Of a stretch of 64,000 bases of DNA, positions 5,302-62,396 are shown one piece after another; the stretch's first letter is position 1; the number at the start of each line of letters is the position of its first letter. A program made the translations under genes and the position numbers. The DNA is from Microbacteriaceae bacterium (GTDB taxonomy: Bacteria > Actinomycetota > Actinomycetes > Actinomycetales > Microbacteriaceae). The notes beneath the pieces are model-generated. The model had not been told where the DNA came from and did no database searches. It saw only the letters and a program-made list of their open reading frames with translations. The DNA lies in assembly GCA_027491295.1 (NCBI GenBank), contig JAIXWK010000001.1:62001-126000 (forward strand), read 5' to 3'.

Positions 5302-5307
5302 AATACT
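5302..5307 (+). promoter_or_regulatory. Candidate -10 element for leaderless lrp-like gene
   Basis: AATACT lies six bases before the ATG at 5314, which lacks a Shine-Dalgarno sequence. It matches the A at position 2 and T at position 6 of the actinobacterial TAnnnT -10 but not the first T, and no clear -35 is seen. Confidence 0.35.
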
Positions 5308-5313
5308 TCTGCA

Positions 5314-5787
5314 ATGGCAAGAATGGAAAGAGCGAGCCGCTCTCAACTGGATGATGTGTCCAAAAAGATTATTGAGCAATTGCAAATTGACGGCCGAAAG
5401 TCCTACTCCGAGATCGGCAAAGTGGTTGGTCTCTCAGAAGCAGCCGTGCGTCAGCGGGTTCAAAAACTAACCGAGTCTGGAGTGATGCAGGTGGTTGCGG
5501 TCACTGACCCGATGAAGCTTGGCTTTAGCCGACAGGCAATGATCGGAATCAAGTGCATGGGAAACGCATCCGAGGTTGCAAAGCAGCTTACGGAGTTTGA
5601 CTCGGTTGACTACGTAGTACTCACAGCAGGCAGTTTCGATGTTCTGGTCGAGGTGGTTTGTGAGGATGACGAAGACCTGATTCAGCTGCTGAATGACAAA
5701 ATCCGGTCCCTACCGGGGGTGATTTCCTCCGAGACATTTGTGTATCTCAAGCTCCACAAGCAGTTCTACAGCTGGGGAACCCGATAA
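5314..5787 (+). CDS. Lrp/AsnC family transcriptional regulator
   Basis: A 157-residue regulator from the ATG at 5314 (an upstream GTG at 5296 would add six residues). The N-terminal winged helix-turn-helix is clear (DVSKKIIEQLQIDGRKSYSE then VGLSEAAVRQRVQKL), and the C-terminal RAM/ligand-binding domain follows (VDYVVLTAGSFDVLVEVVC). It forms oligomers that bind amino acids or polyamine products in the family. It lies between the divergent dehydrogenase gene and the co-directional aminotransferase, and the palindrome at 5241-5276 sits in front of it, so it probably controls polyamine use in response to a pathway metabolite. No ribosome-binding site is evident; a leaderless transcript is possible. 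Confidence 0.85.
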   Translation: MARMERASRSQLDDVSKKIIEQLQIDGRKSYSEIGKVVGLSEAAVRQRVQKLTESGVMQVVAVTDPMKLGFSRQAMIGIKCMGNASEVAKQLTEFDSVDYVVLTAGSFDVLVEVVCEDDEDLIQLLNDKIRSLPGVISSETFVYLKLHKQFYSWGTR

Positions 5788-5829
5788 CATCTGTATAGCC
5801 AACTAACGACGAAGTTAAGAGTGATAGCA

Positions 5830-7314
5830 ATGGCAGCCAAGAAATCCAAAGGTCTACTAGCCCTACTCGGCAAGAAGAAGTCCAAGAAGTCCGAATCCGG
5901 CGAGCGCCGAGACCTCAAGCTGTTCGAAGCAATGAGCAACGGCGAGCCTTACGGCGACAAAGAACTGCAGCGCAGTGCAAAAGACCACCTTTGGATGCAC
6001 TTCACTCGCCACTCCCCCTATCAGACCAAAGACATGACCATCATCACCAGGGGTGAAGGACACTACCTCTGGGATTCCAAGGGCAACAAAGTAATTGATG
6101 GCCTAAGTGGTCTATTCGCAGTAAATGCTGGTCACGGTCACCAGGAACTTGCTGATGCGGCTGCCAAGCAAATGATGGAGCTGGACTTCATGCCGCTTTG
6201 GGCCTATGCCCACCCGCGCGCGATTGAGCTTGCGGAGCGCCTGTTGAGCTATGCGCCAAAAGATCTAAACCGCATCTTCTTTACCACCGGTGGTGGCGAG
6301 GCGGTTGAAACCGCCTGGAAGGTTGCGAAGCAGTACTACAAGCTCAAGGGCAAGCCAACCAAGACCAAGGTCATCTCTCGCATGACCGCCTACCACGGCA
6401 CCAGCCACGGAGCTCTTTCTATCACCGGTATTGCAGCCATGAAGACAATGTTTGAGCCGCTAGTGCCATCAACCATTCGCGTTCCAAACACCAACTGGTA
6501 CCGCTCCAAGCACCTGTTCAAAACCGAAGAGGAGTTTGGCCTTTGGGCAGCGAACCGCATCGAGGAAGCAATCTTGATGGAGGGGCCAGACACCGTTGCC
6601 GCCTTCTATGTTGAGCCAATCCAGAACTCCGGTGGCTGTTTCACCGCTCACCCGAGCTACTTCAAGCGCGTTCGTGAGATTTGCGATAAGTACGACGTGA
6701 TCTTCGTGGCAGACGAGACCATTACCGGCTTTGGCCGCTCCGGTGAGATGTTTGCTTGCGACCGTTACAGTATCCAACCAGACATGATGATCACCGCAAA
6801 GGCGATTACCTCTGGAACGCAGCCCCTGGGTGCTTTGTTCCTCAAGGAAAAGTACTTTGAGCCATTCACCGAGGGAACCACAATCTTCCCGCACGGTTAC
6901 ACCTTTGCTGCCCACCCGGTTGCCTGCGCGGTAGCACTTGCGAATCTCGACATCTATGACCGTGAGAAGCTAGTGGACAACGTTCGCACCAATTCGCCGA
7001 TCTTCCGCAAGACCTTGGAAAAGCTTTACGACCTGCCAATTGTTGGCGATGTTCGTGGCGATGGTTACTTCTTTGCCATTGAGCTTGTCAAGAACCAGGA
7101 AACCCGCGAGACCTTCACCAAAGAAGAGTCCGAGAAGCTTCTCAGAGGGTTCTTGAATAGCGCGTTCTATGAGGCAGGCCTGTATTGCCGAGCTGACGAT
7201 CGTGGAGACCCTGTGGTTCAGCTAGCTCCTCCATTGACCATTGGTCCAAAGGAGTTTGACGAGCTGGAGCAGATTCTTCGTAAGGTGCTAACTGAGGCGT
7301 GGAAGCGCGTCTAA
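5830..7314 (+). CDS. Class III aminotransferase, probable putrescine transaminase
   Basis: A 494-residue PLP-dependent omega-aminotransferase. The fold-type I pattern is complete: GGGEAVETAWK for phosphate binding, the aspartate in VADETITGFGR, and the Schiff-base lysine in ITAKAIT near residue 324. The pathway context suggests putrescine-pyruvate transamination to 4-aminobutanal (SpuC-like), feeding the dehydrogenase. ATG at 5830 is preferred over GTG at 5821 because AAGAG lies eight bases before it. An odd Lys/Ser-rich N-terminal extension (about 25 residues, AAKKSKGLLALLGKKKSKK) precedes the conserved domain. Its last 173 bases overlap the convergent FtsK-like gene. Beta-alanine or GABA transamination is an alternative. 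Confidence 0.82.
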   Translation: MAAKKSKGLLALLGKKKSKKSESGERRDLKLFEAMSNGEPYGDKELQRSAKDHLWMHFTRHSPYQTKDMTIITRGEGHYLWDSKGNKVIDGLSGLFAVNAGHGHQELADAAAKQMMELDFMPLWAYAHPRAIELAERLLSYAPKDLNRIFFTTGGGEAVETAWKVAKQYYKLKGKPTKTKVISRMTAYHGTSHGALSITGIAAMKTMFEPLVPSTIRVPNTNWYRSKHLFKTEEEFGLWAANRIEEAILMEGPDTVAAFYVEPIQNSGGCFTAHPSYFKRVREICDKYDVIFVADETITGFGRSGEMFACDRYSIQPDMMITAKAITSGTQPLGALFLKEKYFEPFTEGTTIFPHGYTFAAHPVACAVALANLDIYDREKLVDNVRTNSPIFRKTLEKLYDLPIVGDVRGDGYFFAIELVKNQETRETFTKEESEKLLRGFLNSAFYEAGLYCRADDRGDPVVQLAPPLTIGPKEFDELEQILRKVLTEAWKRV

Positions 7315-7987
7315 GTAAGGGATTTCCCTGGTCAAGCGCAGTTTGCGGTAAAGCCTTAGGTTTTTCAAGCTGAAGTAGTCCTCGCTTACCCGGCCAACTG
7401 AAAGCGATAACGTGCTCGGCCAACTGCTCATACGTCGTGATGTTCAATTGCTCGTTAGCATCTGGGCCGAGGGCAAATCTGATTTGGCAGTTTCGCCAAA
7501 CTGACTGCGGTAAATCTGAGATCAGTTGCGCTGTCACCAGAAGGAAAACGTTTGACTTTCTGCCAGCTCGAGCAACCAGCTCCATCAGTTCCAAATGTTC
7601 GGTAAACAAATGCACATCGTCAACCACTAGCACCACCGAGAGCTCGAAACGCTCCTTGAGAGAGATCGCACTCGCTATAGCAACCACCTCAGGATTCTGA
7701 GGTTCGAGCCAAATCACCCGAGAGTTGATATTCCTCAACAAGCTGTGGACCAAAACAGTCTTCCCTGAGCCGGTTACGCCCAGGATTAGGCAGTGCCACT
7801 TGGGATTTCGCATTGGATTTTCGAGCGATACCCCGAGTTGATCTAGACCTAAAGCATCCTGGGGATGGGTGACTAGTTCTTGTTTTGCAGCCGGCTCGGC
7901 ACTAGTCGCAGTGTTGGCAGATCCAATCACTGCGAGTAATCCGCGAAGCCGTGAGGCGAGGTTTCTTTGCATGCACCAAATTTGCAT
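7142..7987 (-). CDS. Small FtsK/HerA-like P-loop ATPase
   Basis: A 281-residue protein with a textbook Walker A (GVTGSGKT, residues 70-77), a Walker B-like run VVLVVDDVHLF, and a following AGRKSNVFLLVTAQ strand like the sensor region of FtsK/SpoIIIE ATPases. It lacks membrane segments, the long FtsK N-terminus and the gamma domain, so it resembles an isolated, shortened motor domain. DNA or protein translocation is only a guess. The last ~57 residues are encoded antisense to the 3' end of the aminotransferase gene and are low in recognisable structure. Start choice is unsure: ATG at 7987 has CGGAG almost touching it, and ATG at 7972 is in frame; both lie in a TTTGCATGC direct repeat (7966-7974, 7981-7989). 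Confidence 0.6.
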   Translation of the reverse strand: MQIWCMQRNLASRLRGLLAVIGSANTATSAEPAAKQELVTHPQDALGLDQLGVSLENPMRNPKWHCLILGVTGSGKTVLVHSLLRNINSRVIWLEPQNPEVVAIASAISLKERFELSVVLVVDDVHLFTEHLELMELVARAGRKSNVFLLVTAQLISDLPQSVWRNCQIRFALGPDANEQLNITTYEQLAEHVIAFSWPGKRGLLQLEKPKALPQTALDQGNPLLRRASTPQLAPYEESAPARQTPLDQWSMEELAEPQGLHDRQLGNTGLPHRTRYSRTL

Positions 7988-8022
7988 GCTCCGGAGATTG
8001 CGATGGAGCCAAATTGAAATTC

Positions 8023-8043
8023 TGTGGATAACTCTTTTCCACA
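8023..8043. promoter_or_regulatory. Pair of convergent DnaA-box-like nonamers
   Basis: TGTGGATAA (8023-8031, the exact complement of the consensus TTATCCACA) and TTTTCCACA (8035-8043, a one-mismatch box) face each other three bases apart. They lie in the 107-bp gap between the divergent FtsK-like and ogt genes. Two boxes do not make an origin; they could let DnaA regulate either promoter or titrate DnaA. Confidence 0.45.
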
Positions 8044-8094
8044 GCTATGACGCTGATAACAAAAATCGCGATTTGAGTTCGAGATACTTGAGTC

Positions 8095-9158: not shown

Positions 9159-9199
9159 AAAGATTCGCATCGCCACTACATTGGCTAGATGGGAGAGAA

Positions 9200-9682: not shown

Positions 9683-9698
9683 AGGCTGACTACACATC

Positions 9699-30970: not shown

Positions 30971-31897
30971 CTAACCCTTAACCGATCCAGCCAGCAAACC
31001 TCTTACGAAGTAACGCTGCAGCGAGAAGAACACAATCAGCGGAACAACAATCGAAACAAAAGCACCGGCAGTCAATAGCTCCCAGCCGGACCCTCTGGTT
31101 CCAACCATCTCAGCAAGACGAATGGTCATCGGTGCAACCTCTTTCGCGCCACCTCCGAATGTCAGACCTACCAATAGGTCGTTCCATACCCAAAGGAATT
31201 GGAAGATTGCAAAAGATGCAATCGCCGGTACCGAAAGTGGAAGAACGATCTTTGAAAACAGCGTGAACCAGCCGGCACCATCCACACGCGCAGCTTCGAT
31301 CAACTCACGAGGGATTTGACGCAGGAAGTTGTGCAGCAAGAAGATCGCCATTGGCAAACCAAAGATTGTGTGAGCGATCCAAATTGGGATATAGGTTCCG
31401 GTGATGTTGAAGTCCGGGATGATTGTGACATCGCCGATTACCAGGCCCTTTGCGAACAGCTGAAGCAGTGGGATCAAAGTCAACTGCAGCGGAATAACCT
31501 GCAGCGCAAAGATTGAGAAGAAGATGAAATCTCTTCCCCTGAATTCAAACCATGCCAAAGCGTAGGCCGCAAATACCGCCAAGGTAATCGGGAAGATAAC
31601 CGCCGGAAGTGTTACCGCTAGCGAGTTGAAGAAGAACTGGTAGAGCGGTGGGTTGGTGGTAGACCCCTCGAACAACACCTGCTGGTAGTTCTCAAAAGAA
31701 ATGTTTGGATTTACAAAGAAAGTCCACCAACCTGAGTTGTTGATGTCTTTTTCTGGACGAATCGAAGTGACCAGCAAACCGAATGTTGGGATGGTCCACA
31801 AAATCGCAATGATCCAAGCGCCAAGGGCTGCCCAAGGGGAAGAGAAAACGTTCTTGGCCTTTGACTTTACAAGTGACTTATTGATTAGAGAGGTCAT
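30971..31897 (-). CDS. Carbohydrate ABC transporter permease (AglG/MalG type)
   Basis: A 308-residue permease with about six membrane helices. The MalG-like EAA loop is EAARVDGAGWFTLFSKIVLPL, and the C-terminus ends in YFVRGLLAGSVKG, the usual end of this family. It forms the sugar channel with the following permease. The gene start overlaps the stop of the preceding permease by one base. The alpha-glucoside assignment comes from overall resemblance to AglEFG systems and is less certain than the transporter class. Confidence 0.88.
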   Translation of the reverse strand: MTSLINKSLVKSKAKNVFSSPWAALGAWIIAILWTIPTFGLLVTSIRPEKDINNSGWWTFFVNPNISFENYQQVLFEGSTTNPPLYQFFFNSLAVTLPAVIFPITLAVFAAYALAWFEFRGRDFIFFSIFALQVIPLQLTLIPLLQLFAKGLVIGDVTIIPDFNITGTYIPIWIAHTIFGLPMAIFLLHNFLRQIPRELIEAARVDGAGWFTLFSKIVLPLSVPAIASFAIFQFLWVWNDLLVGLTFGGGAKEVAPMTIRLAEMVGTRGSGWELLTAGAFVSIVVPLIVFFSLQRYFVRGLLAGSVKG

Positions 31898-32907
31898 TAT
31901 CTTTCCGTCCTCTCGAGGCGCAGTTGTCGAATGTTGTAGATGATGATTGGAACGATCGCGACGAAAAGGATGATCGCCAAAGCAGAGCCTCGTCCAAAGT
32001 TCATCTGCCTGAAGGCCTGGGAATACATCTCATTCGCGATTACGTTGGTTTGGAAGTTACCACCGGTCATAGTTCTCACTATGTCGAAGACCTTCAGGGT
32101 TCCAATCGTGATTGTGGTTAGCACCACCACGATGGTCGCACGAATCATTGGGACTGAAACCAAGTAGAAGCGCTTCCAAGGAGCTGCGCCATCCAACATG
32201 GCGGCCTCAACCACCTCGTCAGGAATGTTCTTGAGTGCCGCAGAAAGCACAACCATGGCGAAGCCGGTCTGAATCCAAATCATTACAACGATCAGCAAGA
32301 AGGAGTTCAAAGGCGCTTCAAGCAACCAGTTGGGCGGGGTTAGACCAAGTCCCTTGAAAATCGCAGATAGCAAACCGATGTCTGGCTTGTTGTCATTTGG
32401 TTGGTAGTTGTAAACAAACTTCCAAATAATGCCGGCGCCCACAAACGAAATAGCCATCGGCATAAAGATCAGCGACTTGATAGCTGCCGGGCGGTTCATG
32501 CGGTCGGTCATGTAGGCAATGGCCAAACCAATCACTGTGGAAAGAATTGGGGCGGTAACCACCCAGATAGCTGTGTTGGCAAGCACCACGGTGATTTCTG
32601 GGATAGTGAAGGCCCAGATGAAATTGTCAAAACCTACGAAGGTTTCAGCTTCTTTGTCCATAAAGGCAAGAATCAGGGTGCGAATAGCCGGATAGATCAA
32701 GCCGACTACCAAAAGCAAAATCGATGGCACAAGGAAGACCAGGTACTTCAACCATTCTTGAGTCTTTACCGAGGTGCGAGATGCGAGTAGAAAAATCAAA
32801 AAGATAACAGCTCCGAAGCTCAATAGAGCCAGGGCTAAAAGGGAGAAGTTTTCCGCAATTATGTCCGCGGGGGTTTTCCTCGCCGCGTGAAGTGCCAGTG
32901 TGAACAT
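31897..32907 (-). CDS. Carbohydrate ABC transporter permease (AglF/MalF type)
   Basis: A 336-residue permease with an extra N-terminal membrane helix (FSLLALALLSFGAVIFLIFL) before the core six, as in AglF. The EAA loop is EAAMLDGAAPWKRFYLVSVP. It follows the binding-protein gene after a 92-bp gap containing a strong hairpin, so it is probably expressed at a lower level than the binding protein. The ATG is at 32907. Confidence 0.88.
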   Translation of the reverse strand: MFTLALHAARKTPADIIAENFSLLALALLSFGAVIFLIFLLASRTSVKTQEWLKYLVFLVPSILLLVVGLIYPAIRTLILAFMDKEAETFVGFDNFIWAFTIPEITVVLANTAIWVVTAPILSTVIGLAIAYMTDRMNRPAAIKSLIFMPMAISFVGAGIIWKFVYNYQPNDNKPDIGLLSAIFKGLGLTPPNWLLEAPLNSFLLIVVMIWIQTGFAMVVLSAALKNIPDEVVEAAMLDGAAPWKRFYLVSVPMIRATIVVVLTTITIGTLKVFDIVRTMTGGNFQTNVIANEMYSQAFRQMNFGRGSALAIILFVAIVPIIIYNIRQLRLERTER

Positions 32908-32936
32908 GAGCGAATCCTAACAACCTTTGAAGAAGA

Positions 32937-35857: not shown

Positions 35858-36671
35858 TTGTTGCCTTTCGCTCCAGGTGGGTTACATCGTTAACCTCAGG
35901 TCCCAAGAAACGCTTGGCCAGGCTTTCGAATTCTTTGGCATTACCGGTGGCATAAAACTTGTAGCTCGGCTTTGCGGTCACAGGCGCCAAAAGATCGTGT
36001 TCGGTGAGCACCCTAAAGACATCTTTTGCAGTCTCGTCTGCCGATGAAACCAAGTTCACGCTGTCACCCATTACATACGACAGTGCTGCGTGCAGCAGCG
36101 GGTAGTGGGTGCAGCCCAAAACCAAAGTATCGACCTGCGCTGCCTTGATTGGCGCTAAGTAGGCCTCGGCCGCCGCAAGCAGCTCTGGTCCGGAAGTAAC
36201 TCCACGCTCAACAAAGTCCACGAAGGTTGGACAAGCCGCAGAGGTGATCTCAAAGTCGACAGCTGCTGCGAAAGCGTCTTCATAAGCCTTTGAGTTCACC
36301 GTGGCGCTGGTTCCGATGACACCGACCCTGTGGTTTCGAGAGGTCCCCACCGCTTTGCGAACCGCAGGTTGAATCACTTCAATTACTGGGACACCGAGTC
36401 CCTCGGTATATCTCTCCCTGGCATCTCTTAGAACAGCTGCTGAGGCAGAGTTACATGCGATGACTAAAAGCTTGACCCCCGATGCCACCAGTTCATCCAT
36501 AACCTCAAGGGCTAGTGCTCTGACTTCCGAGATGGGCTTGGGGCCGTAAGGCGAGTTCAGAGTGTCGCCTACGTAGTGAATGGATTCGTGCGGAAGTTGG
36601 TCAATGATTGCTCGAGCCACCGTCAAGCCACCGACGCCTGAGTCGAATACACCAATTGGTCTGGAATCCAC
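35850..36671 (-). CDS. murI: Glutamate racemase
   Basis: A 273-residue cofactor-free racemase supplying D-glutamate for peptidoglycan. Both catalytic cysteines are present, in VIACNSAS and LVLGCTHYP, and the N-terminus [17 protein letters not shown] is diagnostic. The start is GTG at 36671. No Shine-Dalgarno sequence is present; TAGACT lies exactly six bases before the GTG, which suggests a leaderless mRNA. It heads murI-rph-rdgB. Confidence 0.96.
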
Positions 36672-36677
36672 TGACTA

Positions 36678-36683
36678 AGTCTA
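36678..36683 (-). promoter_or_regulatory. -10 element of leaderless murI transcript
   Basis: TAGACT on the minus strand fits TAnnnT and lies six bases before the murI GTG, which has no ribosome-binding site. Confidence 0.6.
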
Positions 36684-36699
36684 AAGCTCATTGGGTAGA

Positions 36700-36705
36700 T
36701 AGGCT
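36700..36705 (+). promoter_or_regulatory. -10 element of leaderless pncB transcript
   Basis: TAGGCT fits TAnnnT and lies six bases before the pncB GTG at 36712. The divergent murI element is 16 bases away, so the two promoters are back to back. Confidence 0.6.
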
Positions 36706-36711
36706 AAAGAG

Positions 36712-37986
36712 GTGTCCACTGCATTGAATACCGATCGCTACGAGCTCACCATGCTCCAGGCTGCGCTGAAGTCTGGAAAAGCTGAGCGCAAGTGCGTATT
36801 TGAGGTTTTCACCCGCCAACTTCCTGCGGGACGTCGATACGGCGTGGTGGCAGGAACCGGGCGAGTCCTAGAGGCAATTCAAAACTTTAGGTTCGAGGAA
36901 AAAGAGCTTGATTTCCTTAGGACCAACTCGGTGGTGGACGAGTCGACTCTCAGTTGGCTTGCAAACTATAAATTCTCGGGAAATGTCTTTGGTTATCGCG
37001 AGGGCGAGCTTTACTTCGGACACTCTCCAGTCCTGACGGTGGAGGGCAGCTTTGCGGAAGCCGTAATTCTAGAAACTGTGATTCTCTCGATTCTGAATTA
37101 TGACTCTGCAGTGGCCTCGGCAGCCGCTCGCATGAAATCAGTGGCAGCCGGCCGACGTCTGATTGAGATGGGTTCGCGTCGAGCTCACGAGTCGGCAGCG
37201 GTCGCGGCGGCCAGAGCTTCATTTATTGCAGGCTTTGATGCGACAAGCAATCTTGCTGCCGGTGCTCAATACGGCATCGAGACCGCTGGCACCAGCGCGC
37301 ACGCTTTCACATTGCTGCACGACACCGAAGAGCAAGCCTTTCAAGCGCAGCTGGCATCAATGGGAATTGAGACCACTCTTCTGGTCGACACTTTTGATGT
37401 CAGAAATGCGGTGGCGACTGCGGTGCGACTAACTGACGGAAAGGTTCGAGCAGTTCGTCTCGATTCTGGAGATCTAGCCACCTCGGCTGTCGAGGTGCGC
37501 AAGCAGCTGGATGATTTAGGAGCGAAACAAACCAAGATCACAGTCACAAGTGACCTAGACGAATACACAATCGCTGCCCTGGCAATCGCACCGATCGATA
37601 GCTACGGCGTCGGAACCAGTTTGGTCACCGGCTCGGGTCACCCAACCGCCGGATTTGTATACAAACTTGTGGCTCACACCGATAACGGTGACTGGGTAGA
37701 TGTTGCCAAAACCTCAAAACTCAAAACCAACCGCGGTGGCAAGAAGCATGCCAGCCGAGTTTTGGAAAATGGCGTTGCAAAGTCAGAGCTGATTTCTGGA
37801 GAACCACAGGCTGGACGAGCACTTCAGGCCCCGATGATTTCCAATGGTGAAATTGCAACTGAATACCTAGGAATTCAAGGCGTATTAAGAGCTCGAGAGC
37901 ACCACAGGGAAGCAATTTCTGAGCTACCGGCAGGAGCACTTCGCCTGTCTAAGGGCGAGCCTGCTATTCCAGTTGAGTTTATTTAG
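36712..37986 (+). CDS. pncB: Nicotinate phosphoribosyltransferase
   Basis: A 424-residue enzyme converting nicotinate and PRPP to nicotinate mononucleotide in NAD salvage. Diagnostic parts are TDRYELTMLQAALKSGKAER at the start, EMGSRRAHESAAVAAARASF, and GTSAHAFTLLHDTEEQAF around the catalytic histidine, with LDSGDL later. GTG start, probably leaderless. The last eight bases overlap the convergent DUF3039 gene. Confidence 0.95.
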   Translation: MSTALNTDRYELTMLQAALKSGKAERKCVFEVFTRQLPAGRRYGVVAGTGRVLEAIQNFRFEEKELDFLRTNSVVDESTLSWLANYKFSGNVFGYREGELYFGHSPVLTVEGSFAEAVILETVILSILNYDSAVASAAARMKSVAAGRRLIEMGSRRAHESAAVAAARASFIAGFDATSNLAAGAQYGIETAGTSAHAFTLLHDTEEQAFQAQLASMGIETTLLVDTFDVRNAVATAVRLTDGKVRAVRLDSGDLATSAVEVRKQLDDLGAKQTKITVTSDLDEYTIAALAIAPIDSYGVGTSLVTGSGHPTAGFVYKLVAHTDNGDWVDVAKTSKLKTNRGGKKHASRVLENGVAKSELISGEPQAGRALQAPMISNGEIATEYLGIQGVLRAREHHREAISELPAGALRLSKGEPAIPVEFI

Positions 37987-38224
37987 ACTCGTCGTCCCCA
38001 GGCTTTAGGCCCTCGTAAATTTCCTTGCAGGTTGGGCACACCGGAAACTTCTGTGGATCACGAGTCGGGGTCCAGACCTTGCCGCAAAGTGCCACAACCG
38101 CGCTTCCAAGAACCGCCGATTCAACAATCTTGTTCTTCTGCACATAGTGCGAGAAGCGCTCGTGGTCACCCTGATCGAGGTGAACCTGCTGTTCTACTTT
38201 GGTGCCAAAATCCTGCTCTGCCAT
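37979..38224 (-). CDS. DUF3039 family protein
   Basis: An 81-residue actinobacterial protein of unknown function. Two pairs of putative metal ligands are visible: a lone cysteine in VALCGKVWTP and CPTCKEIY near the C-terminus, together with GDHERFSHYV, suggest a small zinc-binding fold. The ATG at 38224 is chosen over GTG at 38230. It follows the htrA-like gene closely, within six bases, so the two may be co-transcribed. Nothing here reveals its role. Confidence 0.85.
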   Translation of the reverse strand: MAEQDFGTKVEQQVHLDQGDHERFSHYVQKNKIVESAVLGSAVVALCGKVWTPTRDPQKFPVCPTCKEIYEGLKPGDDESK

Positions 38225-38229
38225 GGCCA

Positions 38230-39429
38230 CTACCTTAGATCCGCGGCATCGCCCAGGGTGACCTGGAAAGTCTTTTTGGAACCATTGCGGATTACCTCAA
38301 CCTCAACGATTGCACCGGCCGGTTCAGCCCTAACCATCGCTGTGAGATCAGCAGCCGAAGTCACAGTTTGGCCGGCAAAGGTGATAACGACATCGCCGGG
38401 TTCAATTCCCGCCTTTTCTGCAGCACCAGCCTCAGTGAGCTTCTCTACATAAGCGCCGGTGGAAAAGGTTGAGTTCTCGACAGTGTTGTCCCTGACCATC
38501 GCACCCAGCAGGCCGTGGCTTGCTGATCCGGTGTCAATAATCTCCTGAGAGATCCTGAAAGCTGTGTTTGATGGGATTGCAAAACCAACACCGATGCTTC
38601 CGCTCTCACCATTGCCAGCAGTGGCAATTGCAACGTTGATTCCGATAAGTTCGCCCTGGTTATTTACCAGCGCACCTCCCGAGTTACCAGGGTTGATTGC
38701 TGCATCGGTCTGAATCACCTGAAGCGAGATTGGGGCATTCCCGGTGCCGTTCCAGAACTGAAGACCTGGGTTGTCGCTAACCTCTGCGCTTGCCACCTGG
38801 ATGGTGCGGTTTAGTGCCGAAATGATGCCTTGCGTCACGGTTGAAGAAAGACCAAGTGGGGCACCGATCGCGACAACATCCTCACCAACATTCAAATTGT
38901 CAGAGTCTGCAAAAGTGATTGGCTTTAGACCTGCGACCTGAACCTTTACCACCGCTAGGTCGTAGACCGAGTCATAACCGATTAGCTTGGCCGGATAAAC
39001 CGATCCGTCCCAAAGCTGAACTGTGATCTTTGGGTTCTGTGTCAAACCTCCGAGAGTCACCACGTGGGCATTGGTTAGCACGTAACCATCTTCGGTAAGT
39101 GCAACACCTGAACCGGAGCCTGACCCATCAGCAGATTCAACCGCCAGGGTAACTACCGACGGTGCGGCGTTGGATGCGGCACCGGTGACCCAGTTGACGT
39201 TCTCGGTGTTGTTTACGACAACCGGAGCTGGCTGGGAAATTGATAGATAGGAAAGCGTGAATGCGGTTGATCCGACTACACCACCGATTAGCGCTGCGGT
39301 TAGCGCGAGCAGTGCGATCCCGAGAGCGCGAATTGGACGACGCTTGCGCTTTGGAGCTTGGGCTACTGGAGCAGAGTAGGTGTTACCGAAACTAAATTGA
39401 CTATCTCCAGAGCGATTCCACTCAGACAT
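38230..39429 (-). CDS. HtrA/DegP-like membrane-anchored serine protease
   Basis: A 399-residue envelope protease for misfolded proteins. A basic cytoplasmic N-terminus (PKRKRRPIRALG) leads to one membrane helix (about residues 36-62); then comes a trypsin-like domain with His122 (TNAHVV), Asp157 (YDLAVVKV) and Ser250 (NPGNSGG), and a C-terminal PDZ domain (LTEAGAAEKAGIEPGDVVIT). A good AAAGGAAA ribosome site precedes the ATG. A TTGCCC/GGGCAA inverted repeat lies 16 bases upstream of the start. Confidence 0.93.
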   Translation of the reverse strand: MSEWNRSGDSQFSFGNTYSAPVAQAPKRKRRPIRALGIALLALTAALIGGVVGSTAFTLSYLSISQPAPVVVNNTENVNWVTGAASNAAPSVVTLAVESADGSGSGSGVALTEDGYVLTNAHVVTLGGLTQNPKITVQLWDGSVYPAKLIGYDSVYDLAVVKVQVAGLKPITFADSDNLNVGEDVVAIGAPLGLSSTVTQGIISALNRTIQVASAEVSDNPGLQFWNGTGNAPISLQVIQTDAAINPGNSGGALVNNQGELIGINVAIATAGNGESGSIGVGFAIPSNTAFRISQEIIDTGSASHGLLGAMVRDNTVENSTFSTGAYVEKLTEAGAAEKAGIEPGDVVITFAGQTVTSAADLTAMVRAEPAGAIVEVEVIRNGSKKTFQVTLGDAADLR

Positions 39430-39520: not shown

Positions 39521-40300
39521 TCATCCCACCAACAAGGTCCTCCGCTCCCTTTCAATCACCGCGATAGACAATTTGTTGGAGGACAGCTCCCAACTGGCAG
39601 CGTTGTAAACCCAGTTAGCGGTCGAATACTTGTAATCCACCTCATAAGAAACAAAGGCCTTTGCCCAGTAGGTTCCCGGACTGGAAAATGCATAACTTCG
39701 ATGAAAGCCAAAAAGGTCCCTACCGTTTGATAACTCCCACCTAGCCGTTACCGGCCGAAACCTTATCTGGGCAGATCTGCCAAGCAGAACACCAGAGATT
39801 ACCTCGGTGTTGGCTTGGACGTGAAGTTCTATCTCGTCTTCAAACTCAATCTCTGAACCAGGGCTCCACCAAGCCGTTGGCTTTCCAGCCATTGCGGTAA
39901 AGCGATCCCTGAGCTCAATTTCCTCGGCGGTCATGGTGGTGCCTGATGAGCTTGATGGCTTAGGAACTTCATCTCCGATGCAGGGTCTTGACCCAACCGG
40001 CACCCAGGCTGTGATTACGGTCATGGTTGGAACATCGATGGTGCCATTTGCAAAGTAACGGCATTCCCGCATCGCTACCTCCCCCGATCCACCTGAACTG
40101 CCGCCCCCGCCACCAACTACCTCATCAGCGCAAACGCTGAATTGACCAGGTATGCCATCTGGGCACTCGCTAGCTTGCTGGTGGGCACGATATTTGGTCG
40201 AGGAGTTCGCCTGAAACGAAGAGTTGTTTGATGAGAATTGAAAGTCGGCAGCCAGATTTGCGATCCCAAGTGCAACGAGTAAGACAACGAGCAAATTCAT
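39521..40300 (-). CDS. Secreted protein of unknown function
   Basis: A 259-residue protein I do not recognise. A short signal sequence (MNLLVVLLVALGIANLAADF) is followed by a Ser/Asn-rich stretch, a segment with four cysteines (about residues 48-110: ECPDG, SVCAD, RECRY, RPCIG), a Gly/Ser linker (GGGGGSSGGSG), and a C-terminal beta-rich domain with GTYWAKAFVSYEVDYKY that vaguely recalls PKD-like surface domains. The start lacks a ribosome site, and TAACTT lies six bases before the ATG, a leaderless pattern. It stands alone between htrA and the initiator tRNA. Confidence 0.6.
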   Translation of the reverse strand: MNLLVVLLVALGIANLAADFQFSSNNSSFQANSSTKYRAHQQASECPDGIPGQFSVCADEVVGGGGGSSGGSGEVAMRECRYFANGTIDVPTMTVITAWVPVGSRPCIGDEVPKPSSSSGTTMTAEEIELRDRFTAMAGKPTAWWSPGSEIEFEDEIELHVQANTEVISGVLLGRSAQIRFRPVTARWELSNGRDLFGFHRSYAFSSPGTYWAKAFVSYEVDYKYSTANWVYNAASWELSSNKLSIAVIERERRTLLVG

Positions 40301-40306: not shown

Positions 40307-40312
40307 AAGTTA
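40307..40312 (-). promoter_or_regulatory. -10 element of the leaderless secreted-protein transcript
   Basis: TAACTT on the minus strand fits TAnnnT and lies six bases before the ATG at 40300. Confidence 0.5.
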
Positions 40313-44443: not shown

Positions 44444-44449
44444 ATGCTA
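44444..44449 (-). promoter_or_regulatory. -10 element of the leaderless PDZ-Lon transcript
   Basis: TAGCAT on the minus strand fits TAnnnT and lies seven bases before the ATG at 44436. Confidence 0.5.
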
Positions 44450-48580: not shown

Positions 48581-48586
48581 TAACCT
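48581..48586 (+). promoter_or_regulatory. -10 element of the leaderless kinase-fold gene transcript
   Basis: TAACCT fits TAnnnT and lies seven bases before the GTG at 48594; no ribosome-binding site is present. Confidence 0.5.
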
Positions 48587-48593: not shown

Positions 48594-49727
48594 GTGGGAC
48601 GACCTGCTTTGATTTTAGCTGCACTGGCAGCCGATGCTTCGCCTGGAAAAAACTTCCGGCACTACTTGAAAGTTGACTCCAACCCAGATTTGGAGACCTT
48701 GAGACTTTGGGGTGCCGATGGGCAGGCCTATGAGTTCAAGATTCCGGCAAACTCTGCCGGCATAAGCGAATTGGCAACCGAGCAAATGGTGGTGCAGTCC
48801 ATGCGCCGCCTTTCTTCTCGTTTGCCGTTTGAGATTCCAGAGTCACTTGGACAAACCCAAGACGACAAGGGAACCACCGGTGTGTTGTTCACGTTGCTAG
48901 AAGGCTCAAGCCCAGACCTTTCTCGCCTGGGACCTGGGCCATTCTCAAAGTCCTTTGGTGAAGCGCTTGCCGCTCTGCACTCACTTTCAGTCGAAGCAAT
49001 CTCAGAGGCCGGACTACCTCAGTATGACTCGGCCGCAATCCTGCACCAGAAAGTTTCCGAGCTCGACAAGATGGCCGCAACCGGCAAGGTGCCAGCTCAG
49101 TTACTTAGCCGCTGGGAGCAGGCACTTGAGGACATCGGTCTATTCCGTTTCCACTCGACCATCACCCACGGCGCAATAAGTTCCGATGCTGTTTTGATCA
49201 ATGGCCAGCAGGTTGTTGGATTGGCAAATTGGAACTCGCTTTCAATTGGTGACCCGGCCGAAGACTTCCGCTGGCTCTCCGGTGGAGCGCTACCTTCCAC
49301 CTTCGAGGACGCAATGATTCACTACCGCGCTGCGAGACCTACGACCGATGAGAACTTTGCTCAGCGTGCGATGCTCTATTCCGAGTTGGAACTGGGAACC
49401 TGGCTACTGCACTGCCTAGCTGTGGGTGACCAAGAGCAGATCAAGCAAGCCGAGGAACTCTTGGCTGAGCTAAAAGACAACCTTGAAGCCGGCAACCTAA
49501 AAGATCTGACCGCAACCAGCTTTGTTGGCTTGGCCGCTGCAGCAGCAATCATTCCTGCAGCCATGCCGACACAGGAGCTAAGCGCTGTCGAGACAGCTAG
49601 CGAGAGCGAAGATCTCGAGGAAGTATCCGCCGCATCAATCTTTGACGAGGTGGCTGGCGTTGAGGCTGAGGAATCAGCCGAAGAAGAGCCGAAGACTGAA
49701 GAAACTAGCCTCGACGAGCTGTTCTAG
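48594..49727 (+). CDS. APH-fold phosphotransferase-like protein, probable pseudokinase
   Basis: A 377-residue protein with an aminoglycoside-phosphotransferase-like layout: FEIPESLGQTQDDKGTTGVLFTLLEG for the N-lobe, GEALAALHSL for the helical region, and ITHGAISSDAVLINGQQVVG for the catalytic loop. The expected HGDxHxxN is replaced by HGAISSDA, and the metal-binding D of the IDW motif is an N (GLANWNSL), so catalysis is unlikely. The last ~65 residues are Glu/Ser-rich (ASESEDLEEVSAASIFDEVA). It stands between uvrD2 and adnB, and its final 23 bases overlap adnB. Function unknown. Confidence 0.65.
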   Translation: MGRPALILAALAADASPGKNFRHYLKVDSNPDLETLRLWGADGQAYEFKIPANSAGISELATEQMVVQSMRRLSSRLPFEIPESLGQTQDDKGTTGVLFTLLEGSSPDLSRLGPGPFSKSFGEALAALHSLSVEAISEAGLPQYDSAAILHQKVSELDKMAATGKVPAQLLSRWEQALEDIGLFRFHSTITHGAISSDAVLINGQQVVGLANWNSLSIGDPAEDFRWLSGGALPSTFEDAMIHYRAARPTTDENFAQRAMLYSELELGTWLLHCLAVGDQEQIKQAEELLAELKDNLEAGNLKDLTATSFVGLAAAAAIIPAAMPTQELSAVETASESEDLEEVSAASIFDEVAGVEAEESAEEEPKTEETSLDELF

Positions 49728-55654: not shown

Positions 55655-55657
55655 TAG

Positions 55658-55671
55658 GCAAATCTATTTGC
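55658..55671. promoter_or_regulatory. Palindrome over the adnA promoter
   Basis: GCAAATCTATTTGC (6-2-6 perfect arms) covers the adnA -10 element TAGATT (55661-55666, minus strand), which is six bases before the adnA GTG. It could be a repressor site or part of the promoter symmetry. No LexA-type SOS box was recognised here. Confidence 0.45.
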
Positions 55672-55720
55672 ACGCTATGACTTTTTCATGTCGTAACCTA
55701 GTAATCCCCAAAGGAGTGCA

Positions 55721-55945: not shown

Positions 55946-56244
55946 TGGAGATTTTGGTTCTTTTGGCATACGCCGCAATTTTGGCTCTGGTCGCACCTTT
56001 CGTGCTTCCGAGTTCCGAGTACTACGGCAAGCTGGTCCCGGCTGGTATATCTCTAGTCTCGGGTTCATTGATTTGGCTGATTCTGACCTGGGCTGGTTTT
56101 CACTACGACGAAGCCTGGATCTGGTTCATCGTGATGTTGGCGATGCCTGCCGCAATGATTTTCGGAACTCGCTACCTAGCTCGCACTAGGGCGGTGGCCG
56201 AGGAAAAGAAGTTGGCCGAGATTCGCCTAGGCGGAAAGGCCTAG
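55945..56244 (+). CDS. Small three-helix membrane protein
   Basis: A 99-residue protein with three hydrophobic segments (ILVLLAYAAILALVAPFVLP, GISLVSGSLIWLILTWAGF, WFIVMLAMPAAMIFG) and a charged C-terminal tail. The start overlaps the stop of the DUF3107 gene, so they are translationally coupled. The last 18 bases overlap the convergent ferritin-like gene. No function is evident. Confidence 0.8.
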   Translation: MEILVLLAYAAILALVAPFVLPSSEYYGKLVPAGISLVSGSLIWLILTWAGFHYDEAWIWFIVMLAMPAAMIFGTRYLARTRAVAEEKKLAEIRLGGKA

Positions 56245-56985
56245 TTGATCCATGCGCACGGTGTGCGCTGCAATCAACTCTGAGGTGTATGGCTCGAGTG
56301 TTTTGAACTGAGCGCGGGTTCGGTCAGCATCGTTATTGAATGACCCGGTGACCAACACCCTTTCAAAACTGATTGAGTTTCTAATCTCCAATAGGCAGTC
56401 CGCCACCACCATGCGCCCAAAAAGCGCCAGTCGCTGACCAAGCTTTGGATCTTGAGAAATTGCGTCAAACAGCGTGGCCTGCGCTAGCTTCTCAAGCTCC
56501 TGGTGAGACAAAAGCTCTTCAACCTTTATCCGTCGTGCAGGGGTTAGCCCCCTTGCCAACTTGCGGAAAGAGTCCTCCAGCATTCCAAACACGATGTAGT
56601 CGCGCATCATCTCCTCAAAGAAGTCTGCGCCCTTGGTTCTACTGAGCAGCTGATTGATTGAGCTGCCGTAAAGCGCTTCTAGGTTGCTTGGGACCACATC
56701 CAATTTTGCGAGCAGCGGAACCAGCTCTGCGTGCCTTGAGTAGTACTTATTCGAGAGCAGGTGAAGCTTCTTAGAAAGAGTTTGATCGCCCGCTGTTTCC
56801 GACTGCTGGTCTAGCTGCTCAGCGATGCTGACCGTGAGGTGAGCAAGCCGACCTAGGTAGATTTCAGGCGAAGGAGTAAGCTTGGCAGGGTTGAGTTGAA
56901 TTTGGCTTCTACCCGAGCTCGCATCACGCGAGGGGAGCGAAAGCTTCTGGGACACCTTGCGGAGTCTGCGCAACCAATCCAACAC
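56227..56985 (-). CDS. Ferritin-like fold protein
   Basis: A 252-residue all-helical protein matching the actinobacterial ferritin-like group next to rhlE. Candidate metal ligands are the glutamates and histidines in SRHAELVPLL and the EELLSHQELEKLAQ helices, but I cannot confirm a full di-iron site. MiaE-like tRNA hydroxylases share the fold. GTG start with TAAGCT six bases upstream, a leaderless pattern. It is divergent from the DEAD-box gene, with 65 bases between starts. Confidence 0.75.
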   Translation of the reverse strand: MLDWLRRLRKVSQKLSLPSRDASSGRSQIQLNPAKLTPSPEIYLGRLAHLTVSIAEQLDQQSETAGDQTLSKKLHLLSNKYYSRHAELVPLLAKLDVVPSNLEALYGSSINQLLSRTKGADFFEEMMRDYIVFGMLEDSFRKLARGLTPARRIKVEELLSHQELEKLAQATLFDAISQDPKLGQRLALFGRMVVADCLLEIRNSISFERVLVTGSFNNDADRTRAQFKTLEPYTSELIAAHTVRMDQLGLSA

Positions 56986-56991: not shown

Positions 56992-56997
56992 AGCTTA
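56992..56997 (-). promoter_or_regulatory. -10 element of the leaderless ferritin-like transcript
   Basis: TAAGCT on the minus strand fits TAnnnT and lies six bases before the GTG at 56985. Confidence 0.5.
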
Positions 56998-57050
56998 TAA
57001 CTTGCGACCGCATCCCACTAACGGGAGTGGCGAATTAATGGAGAGAATTC

Positions 57051-58367
57051 TTGAACTTTCGTTCCCTTGGCATAGATGAGGACATCTGTGCCGCTTTAGA
57101 TTCCAAATCGATCACCAGTCCATTCCCAATTCAGGAACAAGCTATTCCAGTTGCGTTATCTGGAACTGACGTCATCGGACAGGCCAAGACCGGCACCGGC
57201 AAGACCCTAGGCTTTGGCCTTCCGCTATTGCAGTCCCTAGGAAAAGACCCAGAGCACGGCGTTCAGGCGCTGGTTGTTGTTCCGACCCGTGAACTTGCTG
57301 TTCAGGTTGCAGAGGACCTAGAACTCGCTGCTTCAAACCGAAGCACCCAAATTGCAGCCATCTATGGCGGTAAGGCGTACGAAGGTCAGATTGCTCAGAT
57401 CAAGGCTGGTGCTCAGGTAGTAGTTGGAACCCCGGGTCGACTAATCGACCTTGCCAAGCAAAAGCTTTTGGATTTGGGAAAGATCAAGTTCATGGTGCTG
57501 GATGAGGCCGATGAGATGCTGGATCTTGGTTTCTTGCCGGATGTTGAGAAGCTATTTAGCTTCACCCCTGCTGGTCGTCAGACCATGCTGTTCTCGGCAA
57601 CCATGCCGGCAGCGATTCTGAACCTCGCCCGTCGTTACCAAAACCGACCTATTCACATTCGTGTGCAAGATCCGGACGAGGGTAAGACCAAAGCTGACAT
57701 CAAGCAGTTTGTTTACCGCGCTCACTCGATGGATAAGGACGAAGTAGTCGGTCGCATCTTGCAGGCCGAGGGACGCGGTAAGACCGTGATCTTCGTTCGC
57801 ACCAAGCGCACCAGCGCCAAGCTTTCCGAAGAGCTGATTGACCGTGGCTTTAATGCCACCGCGCTGCACGGAGACATGAGCCAAGAAGCTCGCGAGCGTT
57901 CGATGGCAAACTTCCGCGCCGGTAAAAAAGACATCCTGGTGGCAACCGAGGTCGCGGCTCGTGGAATTGACGTTGACGACGTTACCCACGTAATCAACTA
58001 CTCGGTTCCTGAGGATGAAAAGGCTTATCTACACCGCATCGGTAGAACCGGTCGCGCCGGAAAGCTCGGCGTTGCGGTTACCTTTGTGGACTGGGATGAC
58101 ATGACTCGTTGGGTTCACATCAACCGCGAACTAGAGCTGGAAAAGCCTGAGCCACAGGAGACTTATTCGAACTCCCCTCACCTTTATGAGGAGCTCGGGA
58201 TTGCTGTGGGAACCAAGGGTCGCATTGCCCGCTCAACTAGAGAGCCGGCAAAGGATTCAAAGCCAAAGCAGCAGCAACCTGCCAGAACCGAACCGACTAA
58301 GCAAGCACCTAGGCGCGATCGCAACCGCTCTCGCAACTATGTGAGTGGTTCAAAGCCTGAGGCTTGA
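57051..58367 (+). CDS. DEAD-box RNA helicase (RhlE/DeaD-like)
   Basis: A 438-residue ATP-dependent RNA helicase. Motifs are complete: Q motif region (SPFPIQEQAIPVALSG), GQAKTGTGKT, PTRELAVQVA, LDEADEMLD, FSATMP, TEVAARGIDVDDVTHVINY and HRIGRTGRAG. A basic, disordered tail (TREPAKDSKPKQQQPARTEP) can bind RNA. The start is TTG at 57051, set by GGAGAG in front; no better in-frame ATG exists. The last 31 bases overlap the convergent PHP gene. Confidence 0.95.
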   Translation: MNFRSLGIDEDICAALDSKSITSPFPIQEQAIPVALSGTDVIGQAKTGTGKTLGFGLPLLQSLGKDPEHGVQALVVVPTRELAVQVAEDLELAASNRSTQIAAIYGGKAYEGQIAQIKAGAQVVVGTPGRLIDLAKQKLLDLGKIKFMVLDEADEMLDLGFLPDVEKLFSFTPAGRQTMLFSATMPAAILNLARRYQNRPIHIRVQDPDEGKTKADIKQFVYRAHSMDKDEVVGRILQAEGRGKTVIFVRTKRTSAKLSEELIDRGFNATALHGDMSQEARERSMANFRAGKKDILVATEVAARGIDVDDVTHVINYSVPEDEKAYLHRIGRTGRAGKLGVAVTFVDWDDMTRWVHINRELELEKPEPQETYSNSPHLYEELGIAVGTKGRIARSTREPAKDSKPKQQQPARTEPTKQAPRRDRNRSRNYVSGSKPEA

Positions 58368-59206: not shown

Positions 59207-59211
59207 AGGTA

Positions 59212-59218
59212 GAGAATA
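59212..59218. promoter_or_regulatory. Overlapping divergent -10 elements of PHP and pepP genes
   Basis: TATTCT on the minus strand (59213-59218) and GAGAAT on the plus strand (59212-59217) overlap; each is six bases from its own start codon (59206 and 59224). Both genes lack ribosome-binding sites. Confidence 0.55.
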
Positions 59219-59223
59219 GTGGC

Positions 59224-60621: not shown

Positions 60622-61116
60622 ACCTAGAATCTTAAGTGCTGGTAGCGCATCCTCGTTTGGAACGATGACTTCATAGCGAGTGGCAATTGGCATTTGCGAT
60701 GATAAAAACGATCGCTTGTTTTTAGTTGTCGAGAATCTAATGATTTGGAACAGCATGCCAAGGCCTGCCGCTACTACCAGAACCGAGAAAAACTGCTGCG
60801 GCAGATAGCTCATTCCGCCTTCTGGGGAAACCTCAATCCCAGCGCCAATCAAAAGGGCAAAAATCAAACCCATCCAAAAACCGGTGATAGCACCTGAGAG
60901 CGCTACTCGCCCATAGCCCAGGCGGGTGCGCACTCGCTCCACTAAAACTGGGTCGTGACCAATGATCGAAATCTTATTTGGCGCGAAGTCGCCAGCAATT
61001 AGACGTTCCACCAACTTGGTGGCATCTTGGTAATTTGGAAACTCACCAAGCGAGTGGCCCTTGGGAACAATAGGTCCAGGACGGCCACTTTTAGGGTTAG
61101 GTCGGGCATCGGTCAT
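60601..61116 (-). CDS. General stress protein 17M-like membrane protein
   Basis: A 171-residue protein with an N-terminal YflT/Gsp17M-like segment (FPNYQDATKLVERLIAGDFA, ISIIGHD) followed by two hydrophobic helices (LSGAITGFWMGLIFALLIGA, FFSVLVVAAGLGMLFQII) and a short tail. The family is linked to general stress, but its function is unproven. No ribosome site is seen; CAAAAT lies six bases before the ATG. It is divergent from the MgtE-N gene. Confidence 0.8.
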   Translation of the reverse strand: MTDARPNPKSGRPGPIVPKGHSLGEFPNYQDATKLVERLIAGDFAPNKISIIGHDPVLVERVRTRLGYGRVALSGAITGFWMGLIFALLIGAGIEVSPEGGMSYLPQQFFSVLVVAAGLGMLFQIIRFSTTKNKRSFLSSQMPIATRYEVIVPNEDALPALKILGLAGSSE

Positions 61117-61150
61117 GTGAGCATTTTGCCAGAAGTTTGCATTTGGCGAA

Positions 61151-61156
61151 TAAGGT
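61151..61156 (+). promoter_or_regulatory. Candidate -10 of leaderless mgtE-N transcript
   Basis: TAAGGT fits TAnnnT and lies seven bases before the GTG at 61164. The AAGG within it could instead act as a weak ribosome-binding site. Confidence 0.4.
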
Positions 61157-61163
61157 TATCTCT

Positions 61164-62396
61164 GTGAGCGCAACCAGAGTATTCGTAGCCAGATTGGCGA
61201 GCTGTGGCGTCTTTGACCCACTCGGTGACCGAGTTGGAAAAGTCATTGACGTTCTAATGGCGTACCGAAAGAATCTGCCACCGCGCGCAACCGGCTTTGT
61301 GATTGAGATTTCTGGCCGCAGAAGAGTCTTTCTTCCGGTGGCACGAGTCACCGCAATTGCACCTGGACAGCTTATGACCAATGGTTTTATTGACCTGCGC
61401 CGCTTCTCACAGCGCGGTCAGGAAGTCAGGGCTATTGCGGAAATCCTCGGCCGCAAGGTCACCCTGCTGGATGGCTCAGGCGATGCCACCATCGAAGATT
61501 TCGCGATCGAGAAGAACAAGCGCGGCGACTGGGAACTGAGCGAGCTATTTGTCCGCCGACCCAAGAACACCGCCCTTCCTTTTGCCAAGGGTCCAACTGA
61601 GTTCGTGATGTGGCAAGACGTTCAGGAGAACAAGCAAAACCCGGCTGAGCAAGATGCACAGCAGCTACTGTCAACAGTCGCCGACCTTCGACCAGCAGAC
61701 TTGGCAACCGCAGTGCTTGAACTTCCTGAAGACCGAATGATTGCTCTGGCAGAGGAGCTCGACGACGAGCGCCTGGCCGATCTACTAGAAGAGCTACCTG
61801 AAGAGGAGCAGCTCGAGATCATGAACGAACTCGAGGATGAGCGTGCAGCCGAGGTTTTAGATCTCATGGATCCTGACGACGCAGCCGACCTTATGCAGAA
61901 TCTTTCGAAAGAGCGCACCGAGACCCTTTTGGATCTGATGGACCAAGAGGAAGCGGATGATATTCGCCAACTTTTGAAGTATGAACCGTATACCGCCGGT
62001 GGAATGATGACCCCGGAACCAATCATTTGTGCTGCCGACACCACCGTGGCAGAGGCGATGGCACTTATTCGCCGCAAAGAAGTCGAGCCGGTGCTAGCTG
62101 CTCAAGTCTTTGTGACGTTGCCGCCTTATGAGACCCCAACCGGTAAGTACCTAGGTGTAGTTCACTTCCAGAAACTTCTGCGCTATCCCCCGCACGAGAG
62201 ACTGGCATCGCTACTGGATTCAGATCAAGAGCCAATCCAAGTCGATACCTCCATTTCGCAGATTCACCGTGACCTTGCGACCTATGACCTAGTTGCCCTG
62301 CCGGTGGTTGACGCCGAGCGACACATGCTCGGTGTTGTTACCGTGGACGACGTTTTGGACCACCTGTTGCCGGATGACTGGAGAAGTGAGGACTGA
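61164..62396 (+). CDS. MgtE N-terminal and CBS-domain protein without membrane channel
   Basis: A 410-residue cytoplasmic protein. The first ~150 residues look like a PRC-barrel pair (RLASCGVFDPLGDRVGKVID), followed by the MgtE N superhelix (LEELPEEEQLEIMNELEDER, MDPDDAADLMQNLSKER) and two CBS domains (TPEPIICAADTTVAEAMAL, GVVTVDDVLDHLL). The membrane domain of the MgtE Mg2+ channel is absent, so it may sense Mg2+ or nucleotides and act on another protein. The start is GTG at 61164. It overlaps the DUF1003 start and is part of a conserved trio with DUF1003 and Mrp. Confidence 0.85.
   Translation: MSATRVFVARLASCGVFDPLGDRVGKVIDVLMAYRKNLPPRATGFVIEISGRRRVFLPVARVTAIAPGQLMTNGFIDLRRFSQRGQEVRAIAEILGRKVTLLDGSGDATIEDFAIEKNKRGDWELSELFVRRPKNTALPFAKGPTEFVMWQDVQENKQNPAEQDAQQLLSTVADLRPADLATAVLELPEDRMIALAEELDDERLADLLEELPEEEQLEIMNELEDERAAEVLDLMDPDDAADLMQNLSKERTETLLDLMDQEEADDIRQLLKYEPYTAGGMMTPEPIICAADTTVAEAMALIRRKEVEPVLAAQVFVTLPPYETPTGKYLGVVHFQKLLRYPPHERLASLLDSDQEPIQVDTSISQIHRDLATYDLVALPVVDAERHMLGVVTVDDVLDHLLPDDWRSED

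Follow-up and report, generated by a model that had tools for sequence, protein, structure and literature searches.

The window analysed here is a stretch of 64,000 nucleotides (nt) from a Microbacteriaceae bacterium, bases 62001-126000 of contig 2 of three in a genome of 1.447 Mb with a GC content of 53.6%. Several of its genes carry the hexamer TAnnnT 6 or 7 nt upstream of an ATG or GTG start codon, an arrangement that would suit the -10 promoter element of a leaderless gene, whose mRNA begins at the start codon itself. An earlier note on this DNA had listed nine such genes, namely murI, pncB, a gene for a protein of 259 amino acids (aa), PDZ-Lon, a kinase-fold gene, adnA, a ferritin-like gene, PHP and MgtE-N, and in all of them we find the hexamer, the spacing and the start codon as listed (Table 1). 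The near matches that it reported at lrp, ogt, pepP and a Gsp17M-like gene are genuine as well, each with A at position 2 and T at position 6 of a hexamer at spacing 6. A tenth strict site, before the ABC-permease gene at 31897-32907, was absent from that list. The gene names fit Pfam or NCBIfam where checked: Asp/Glu racemase, NAPRTase, PDZ with Lon_C, APH kinase, MiaE_2, PHP, UvrD-like helicase with PDDEXK, M24 peptidase with AMP_N, YflT, MgtE_N with CBS, AsnC/Lrp and Ogt. The name adnA is that of the earlier note; the domains are compatible with it and no model of that name matched. For the 259-aa gene there is no Pfam match.

Table 1. Candidate -10 hexamers and divergent intergenic regions in the window, with their recurrence among orthologs (positions are those of the window)
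Feature	Position	Strand	Recurrence
Near match AATACT, 6 nt before ATG 5314 of Lrp/AsnC-like gene	5302..5307	+	sequence reading
Near match GATACT, 6 nt before ogt ATG 8095	8083..8088	+	sequence reading
Predicted -10 TAGGAT, 6 nt before ATG (32907) of ABC-permease gene 31897-32907	32914..32919	-	6/7 genomes
Predicted -10 TAGACT, 6 nt before murI GTG (36669-36671)	36678..36683	-	13/13 genus genomes
murI/pncB intergenic region, 40 bp, two divergent predicted leaderless promoters	36672..36711	.	gap 38-59 bp in 13 genomes
Predicted -10 TAGGCT, 6 nt before pncB GTG (36712-36714)	36700..36705	+	13/13 genus genomes
Predicted -10 TAACTT, 6 nt before ATG of 259-aa gene 39521-40300	40307..40312	-	4/6 genomes
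Predicted -10 TAGCAT, 7 nt before PDZ-Lon ATG (44436)	44444..44449	-	16/16
Predicted -10 TAACCT, 7 nt before GTG of APH-kinase-fold gene 48594-49727	48581..48586	+	17/17 in genus
Predicted -10 TAGATT, 6 nt before adnA GTG (55654)	55661..55666	-	any TAnnnT-6/7-RTG 18/18; TAGATT 15/18
Predicted -10 TAAGCT, 6 nt before GTG of MiaE_2/ferritin-like gene 56227-56985	56992..56997	-	18/18
Predicted -10 TATTCT, 6 nt before PHP GTG (59206)	59213..59218	-	16/16
PHP/pepP intergenic region, 17 bp; a single bidirectional -10 may serve both genes	59207..59223	.	gap conserved
Candidate -10 GAGAAT, 6 nt before pepP ATG (59224); PHP -10 core on opposite strand	59212..59217	+	.A...T at spacing 6 in 16/16, without T1
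Candidate -10 CAAAAT, 6 nt before ATG (61116) of YflT/Gsp17M-like gene	61123..61128	-	.A...T at 6 or 7 in 16/16
Predicted -10 TAAGGT, 7 nt before GTG (61164) of MgtE_N-CBS gene	61151..61156	+	14/16

Our counts are based on four samples, the own genome (444 kb including the window, with 381 called genes) and three other genomes of the genus, which by genome-set grouping comprises the own genome and 21 others. The genus has a mid GC content, 52-55% across three samples. Metagenome-assembled genomes whose PncB is 96-98% identical carry the labels Micrococcales, Microbacteriaceae and once Auritidibacter. Genes were called with a simple purpose-made gene caller, which missed some, for instance the 259-aa gene at first. 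We define a strict site as TAnnnT 6 or 7 nt upstream of an in-frame ATG or GTG candidate, and take the chance baseline from 200 dinucleotide shuffles per sample.

The earlier note had placed TAnnnT at this spacing above chance, and the count against shuffled controls bears this out in all four samples. In the own genome 49 of the 381 genes have a site, against a shuffle mean of 14.4 (s.d. 3.7, largest 29); the three relatives have 83/434, 76/391 and 83/380, against means of 14.7, 16.3 and 13.7. The spacing profile is sharp, with 36 own-genome genes at 6, 13 at 7 and 1-6 at the remaining spacings, and the relatives show 64/20, 48/29 and 56/27 genes at spacings 6/7. The preference is also restricted to particular start codons. 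In the own sample TAnnnT stands at spacing 6 before 20 of 590 ATG candidates and 16 of 525 GTG candidates but before none of 544 TTG candidates; at spacing 7 the matches are 12, 3 and 1, and every other spacing has 0-7 matches. Across the four samples TTG accounts for 0, 3, 1 and 0 genes at spacing 6, against 36, 64, 48 and 56 for ATG and GTG together, and for 1, 1, 3 and 2 genes at spacing 7, against 13, 20, 29 and 27. A motif model fitted by expectation-maximisation (EM) to first genes at spacing 6/7 reads T (.86), A (.97), R, R, C (.53), T (.93), and at seven control spacing pairs the same procedure gave no comparable motif. The sites here thus have both marks of the leaderless type, TAnnnT at 6-7 nt and a start with ATG or GTG, not TTG.

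The sites are also conserved. In syntenic stretches from 17 genus genomes and three outgroups, the nine listed genes have TAnnnT at 6 or 7 nt before an in-frame ATG or GTG near the aligned N-terminus in 129 of 133 ortholog instances, the own genome counted. Of 24 further genes compared in six or more genomes, 20 are without such a site throughout; the other four are the genes at 31897 (6/7), 37979 (9/13), 45882 (2/16) and 46898 (1/18), and for the small gene at 37979-38230 the spacings in its 9/13 genomes are scattered. The kinase-fold gene has TAACCT-7-ATG in two other genera also, and a TAGGCT-like sequence is visible by eye, uncounted, upstream of pncB in many other Microbacteriaceae. In adnA, the N-terminus varies among species and TAGATT-6-RTG (R being A or G) shifts along with it in most of them; one or two of the three genomes without TAGATT may be chance matches.

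The conservation of T1, A2 and T6 proves nothing, because these bases were used to select the sites, but the central triplet was not so used. Among 13 representative genomes, close relatives left out, hexamer positions 3-5 have an identity of 0.84-0.93, while the spacer is mostly at 0.25-0.6; three of the four positions next to the hexamer reach 0.68-0.76, with 0.75 just after it. When the triplets of ten genes are compared between genomes, 90-95% of the pairs agree for one and the same gene, a figure that counts close relatives such as G017 and G018, and 22-36% for different genes, which is about chance. The own hexamer is kept by pncB (TAGGCT, 13/13), the kinase-fold gene (TAACCT, 17/17), PHP (TATTCT, 16/16) and PDZ-Lon (TAGCAT, 15/16). 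Every predicted leaderless gene in this comparison seems to have retained a -10 hexamer of its own, which we read as probable selection for promoter strength gene by gene.

The promoters seem to hold little besides the -10. In the 203 spacing-6 sites of the four samples, position 3 is G (.60) or A (.23), position 5 is C (.56), the base after the hexamer is T (.54) and the first base of the start is A (.55) or G (.45). No -35 consensus is found in these sites, with 0.00-0.03 bits at -38 to -27, and TTGAC occurs at -38 to -26 in 4 of the 203, against 1 and 0 in two adjacent stretches. The earlier note had further described these genes as having no Shine-Dalgarno (SD) sequence. As a description this holds: SD-like words are found at 7/203 sites, against 194/672 other first genes and 224/660 operon-internal genes, and in 0 or 1 ortholog per strict gene. 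As independent evidence it does not hold. When T, A and T are written into the same positions of other first genes, SD-like words fall to 24/672, the same rate, and outside the hexamer the two sets of genes are alike in SD content; the contrast is uninformative because the hexamer fills the SD slot. The 3' end of the 16S rRNA carries the normal anti-SD GGATCACCTCCTTT, so both modes of translation start should coexist in this genome.

We consider it highly probable, at roughly 0.9, that TAnnnT in these genes is the -10 element of the housekeeping sigma factor with transcription starting on the first base of the start codon. The leaderless interpretation of the earlier note is thus well supported by the spacing peak, the restriction to ATG and GTG, the joint conservation of motif and start, and the adnA motif that mostly shifts with the N-terminus. 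A sigma-70-type housekeeping -10, TAnnnT in general and mostly TARRCT here, would lead the polymerase to start the RNA on the A or G of ATG or GTG. The resulting mRNA would have no 5' leader, and the ribosome would recognise its 5'-terminal start codon without an SD sequence. Nearly all visible promoter information would then reside in the -10 element. SD-led genes are present in this genome as well.

Several points count against this reading. It is based on sequence, spacing, codon restriction and conservation, from which we infer both the start at +1 and leaderless translation. Of the four samples, the own genome exceeds chance by the least, and about 14 of its 49 matches are expected by chance. 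Spacing 7, as in PDZ-Lon, the kinase-fold gene and MgtE_N, is compatible with a 1-nt leader. The start calls are only approximate, so the leaderless fractions are rough, and the ortholog test accepted any in-frame ATG or GTG from -75 to +45 nt, whereby a few instances may be chance. Discarding SD absence as separate evidence after the control described above lowered our probability from 0.93 to 0.91.

Among the alternatives, the one that survives best is that part of the sites give very short leaders of 1-5 nt and are not strictly leaderless, which we regard as rather improbable. Spacing 7 makes up 13 of the 49 own-genome genes, and orthologs swap spacings 6 and 7 (11/6 in the kinase-fold gene, 11/2 in murI), but TTG is scarce at spacing 7 too, which fits a start codon at the RNA end. 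It is less likely still that these genes are leadered, with the real transcription start further upstream and TAnnnT acting as a regulator site or secondary promoter. Some genes could indeed have several promoters, but this would leave the exact distance between motif and start in unrelated genes and the confinement to ATG and GTG unaccounted for, and at several pairs the intergenic regions of 17-40 bp offer little room. A gene-finding artefact, in which TAA or TAG within the hexamer is an in-frame stop at spacing 6 so that starts called on open reading frames (ORFs) fall just after TA, does fit the 170 of 203 spacing-6 sites with TA[AG] four codons before the start, but it is refuted by the spacing profile, without a peak at the equally in-frame spacings 3 and 9, and by the TTG control, and it leaves the fixed T6 and the conserved central triplet amid mostly diverged flanking positions unexplained. 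The out-of-frame spacing-7 sites have an equal TA[AG] share (74/85), and we see no selection on an in-frame stop at spacing 6.

For pepP and the YflT-like gene the leaderless assignment is less certain. SD-like words are present in 11/16 pepP orthologs, and in 5/16 orthologs of the YflT-like gene the.A...T hexamer overlaps the SD-like GAAAGG.

How common the predicted leaderless genes are was overstated in the earlier note, which had credited about half of the first-in-operon genes with a site. A strict site stands before 10/30 first genes in the window and before 25/160 in the rest of the own sample. According to the EM model, background-corrected over the four samples, the share is 17-23% when all genes are counted, 23-35% among first genes (23% in the own genome, 27-35% in the three relatives) and 30-47% among divergent genes; these shares lean high, as the threshold was picked to maximise the excess, and they depend on the start calls. 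About half is reached only by the divergent genes of two relatives (46 and 47%). The leaderless share in the genus looks to be around a sixth to a quarter of genes.

Predicted leaderless genes also occur in divergent pairs. The four samples contain 217 divergent pairs of genes. Where strict sites precede both members (27 pairs), the starts are separated by a median of 41 bp; the median rises to 62 bp for the 105 pairs with a single such site and to 157 bp for the 85 pairs without one, although placing the start at the strict site when present somewhat favours short gaps. This contrast between 41 and 157 bp suggests that leaderlessness accompanies genome compaction. Half of the 24 both-leaderless pairs under 100 bp (12 of them) fall at 37-47 bp, where orthologs repeat and we make no strong claim. 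At murI/pncB, judging from the spacing, each -10 would sit roughly at the -35 position of the other promoter. The own genome has two further divergent pairs with strict sites on both sides, with gaps of 38 and 41 bp (L016 near 13638; L009 near 2664), and in these also each -10 is close to the other's -35 position.

In two pairs the gap is shorter still, and a single -10 might serve both genes. The menB and menC starts, at 183175-183197 on contig 1 of the own genome, lie 17 bp apart around TAGACTA; both genes were identified by NCBIfam equivalogs above the cut-off. Of the 22 genus genomes, 18 have a gap of 17 bp and four one of 18 bp, and all 22 have CAT-N5-TAGACTA followed by RTG. For PHP/pepP it is, by eye, 17 bp in 15/16 and 18 bp in 1/16 genus genomes. 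The geometry of a bidirectional -10 is present at menB/menC in 22/22 and at PHP/pepP in 16/16, with pepP lacking T1 of TAnnnT. A 17-bp gap puts the predicted transcription starts 18 bp apart, the commonest distance in bidirectional promoters. In both pairs one -10 would be common to two leaderless genes: at menB/menC one polymerase site, read both ways, would yield a leaderless mRNA for each of two enzymes in the same pathway, and PHP/pepP would be a second, less symmetric case. We find it reasonably likely that divergent genes can share one 7-bp -10 and nothing else, and that each leaderless gene keeps its own hexamer setting promoter strength. As a side observation, in G003 the menC frame beside the shared -10 has only 64 codons (locus L273), reflecting a disrupted gene or an assembly error.

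The support for a shared -10 is the conservation of these two pairs, not abundance. Gaps of 17-18 bp are found in 5 of the 217 divergent pairs, and 3 of the 5 are menB/menC. The symmetric pattern CAY-N5-TANNNTA-N5-RTG has one match in the own genome, menB/menC. The one-sided pattern shows no enrichment there: its 7 matches compare with 11 of the reversed control. It hits menB/menC on both strands and five other places including PHP/pepP, which alone of the five has two long ORFs (289 and 465 codons), while one has ORFs of 84 and 236 codons and three have an ORF of <24 codons. Across the 22 genus genomes the symmetric pattern turns up 31 times, including 18 times at menB/menC, and its reversed control 20 times. 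Five of the 13 others were checked and none has two clearly long ORFs, L271 being ambiguous (88 and 95 aa). The 17-bp form is absent from eight outgroup menB/menC loci, of which G027 may, by eye, have the 18-bp form, and that of PHP/pepP was not seen in three outgroups. In a family survey by script and eye, covering 20 genomes out of 120, the 20 being from 15 genera, mostly small genomes and not a random choice, menB has its own TAnnnT-6/7 in 18/20 (one ambiguous, one without) and the 17-bp form occurs in 1.

Leaderless actinobacterial genes are already known, and this genus adds another instance. The earlier note had mentioned leaderless mRNA in mycobacteria and other actinobacteria, and the literature documents it (PMC3160421, PMC3898074, PMC4633059, PMC10937400). 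The section of Zheng et al. 2011 that we compared predicts TA-led leaderless genes in 86/89 actinobacterial genomes, about 20% of genes (PMC3160421). Our genes resemble these in having TAnnnT about 10 bp before the start, although they belong to a small-genome, mid-GC Microbacteriaceae genus; that section makes no mention of gene-specific triplets or of 17-bp pairs with a shared -10. In mycobacteria leaderless genes have been measured (PMC3898074, PMC4633059, PMC10937400). An ATG or GTG at the 5' end is necessary and sufficient there and TTG is ineffective (Shell 2015, PMC4633059), and M. tuberculosis has TANNNT, no -35 motif and 26% leaderless mRNAs among genes with a primary transcription start site (TSS) (Cortes 2013, PMC3898074). 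The likeness to M. tuberculosis and M. smegmatis extends to the TANNNT -10, the missing -35 consensus and the use of ATG and GTG but not TTG, as well as to the leaderless share, roughly one in four of the genes there that have a primary TSS; those sets come from measured TSSs and ribosome profiling, whereas ours comes from sequence and conservation. A figure legend in Cortes 2013 describes closely juxtaposed divergent promoters, with one divergent pair having leaderless mRNAs (PMC3898074). Deinococcus has the same leaderless TAnnnT habit (PMC12340547).

In bidirectional promoters divergent TSSs are usually 18 bp apart, owing to the symmetry between positions -11 and -7 (PMC10268837, PMC12825309). 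The 17-bp pairs have the same symmetric -11 and -7, and a 17-bp intergenic region corresponds to the 18-bp TSS distance. Those papers concern Salmonella and E. coli; in our pairs start codons would sit on both TSSs, so that the intergenic region would consist of the -10 and two discriminators. Among the papers listed in searches judged by title and abstract start, none dealt with leaderless genes in Microbacteriaceae or with bidirectional promoters of leaderless genes, subscription journals being mostly and preprints wholly outside the coverage. Of these results, the proposed -10 shared by two leaderless genes most deserves experimental work. If it is real, the 17-bp pairs would rank with the smallest divergent regulatory regions that can exist, and they would offer a clean test of promoter symmetry in paired expression. 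For small-genome actinobacteria the genus moreover supplies predicted leaderless promoters that can be compared and tested, and with them several gene starts can be fixed.

Some minor observations concern the neighbourhood of these sites. The adnA/DUF3107 intergenic region (window 55655-55720) contains a palindrome-like GACA-(A/T-rich)-TGTC followed by GTAACCT, which by eye is kept in many genus genomes; it may be an operator or else serve the SD-led DUF3107 gene as its promoter. Split 16S rRNA matches lie at the ends of two contigs (contig 2: 16-823; contig 3: 18-739), an assembly break at an rRNA gene. The gene at window 57051-58367 has TTG as the start candidate closest to the aligned N-terminus in 18/18 genus genomes, with an SD-like word in 17, and so shows a conserved rare start codon.

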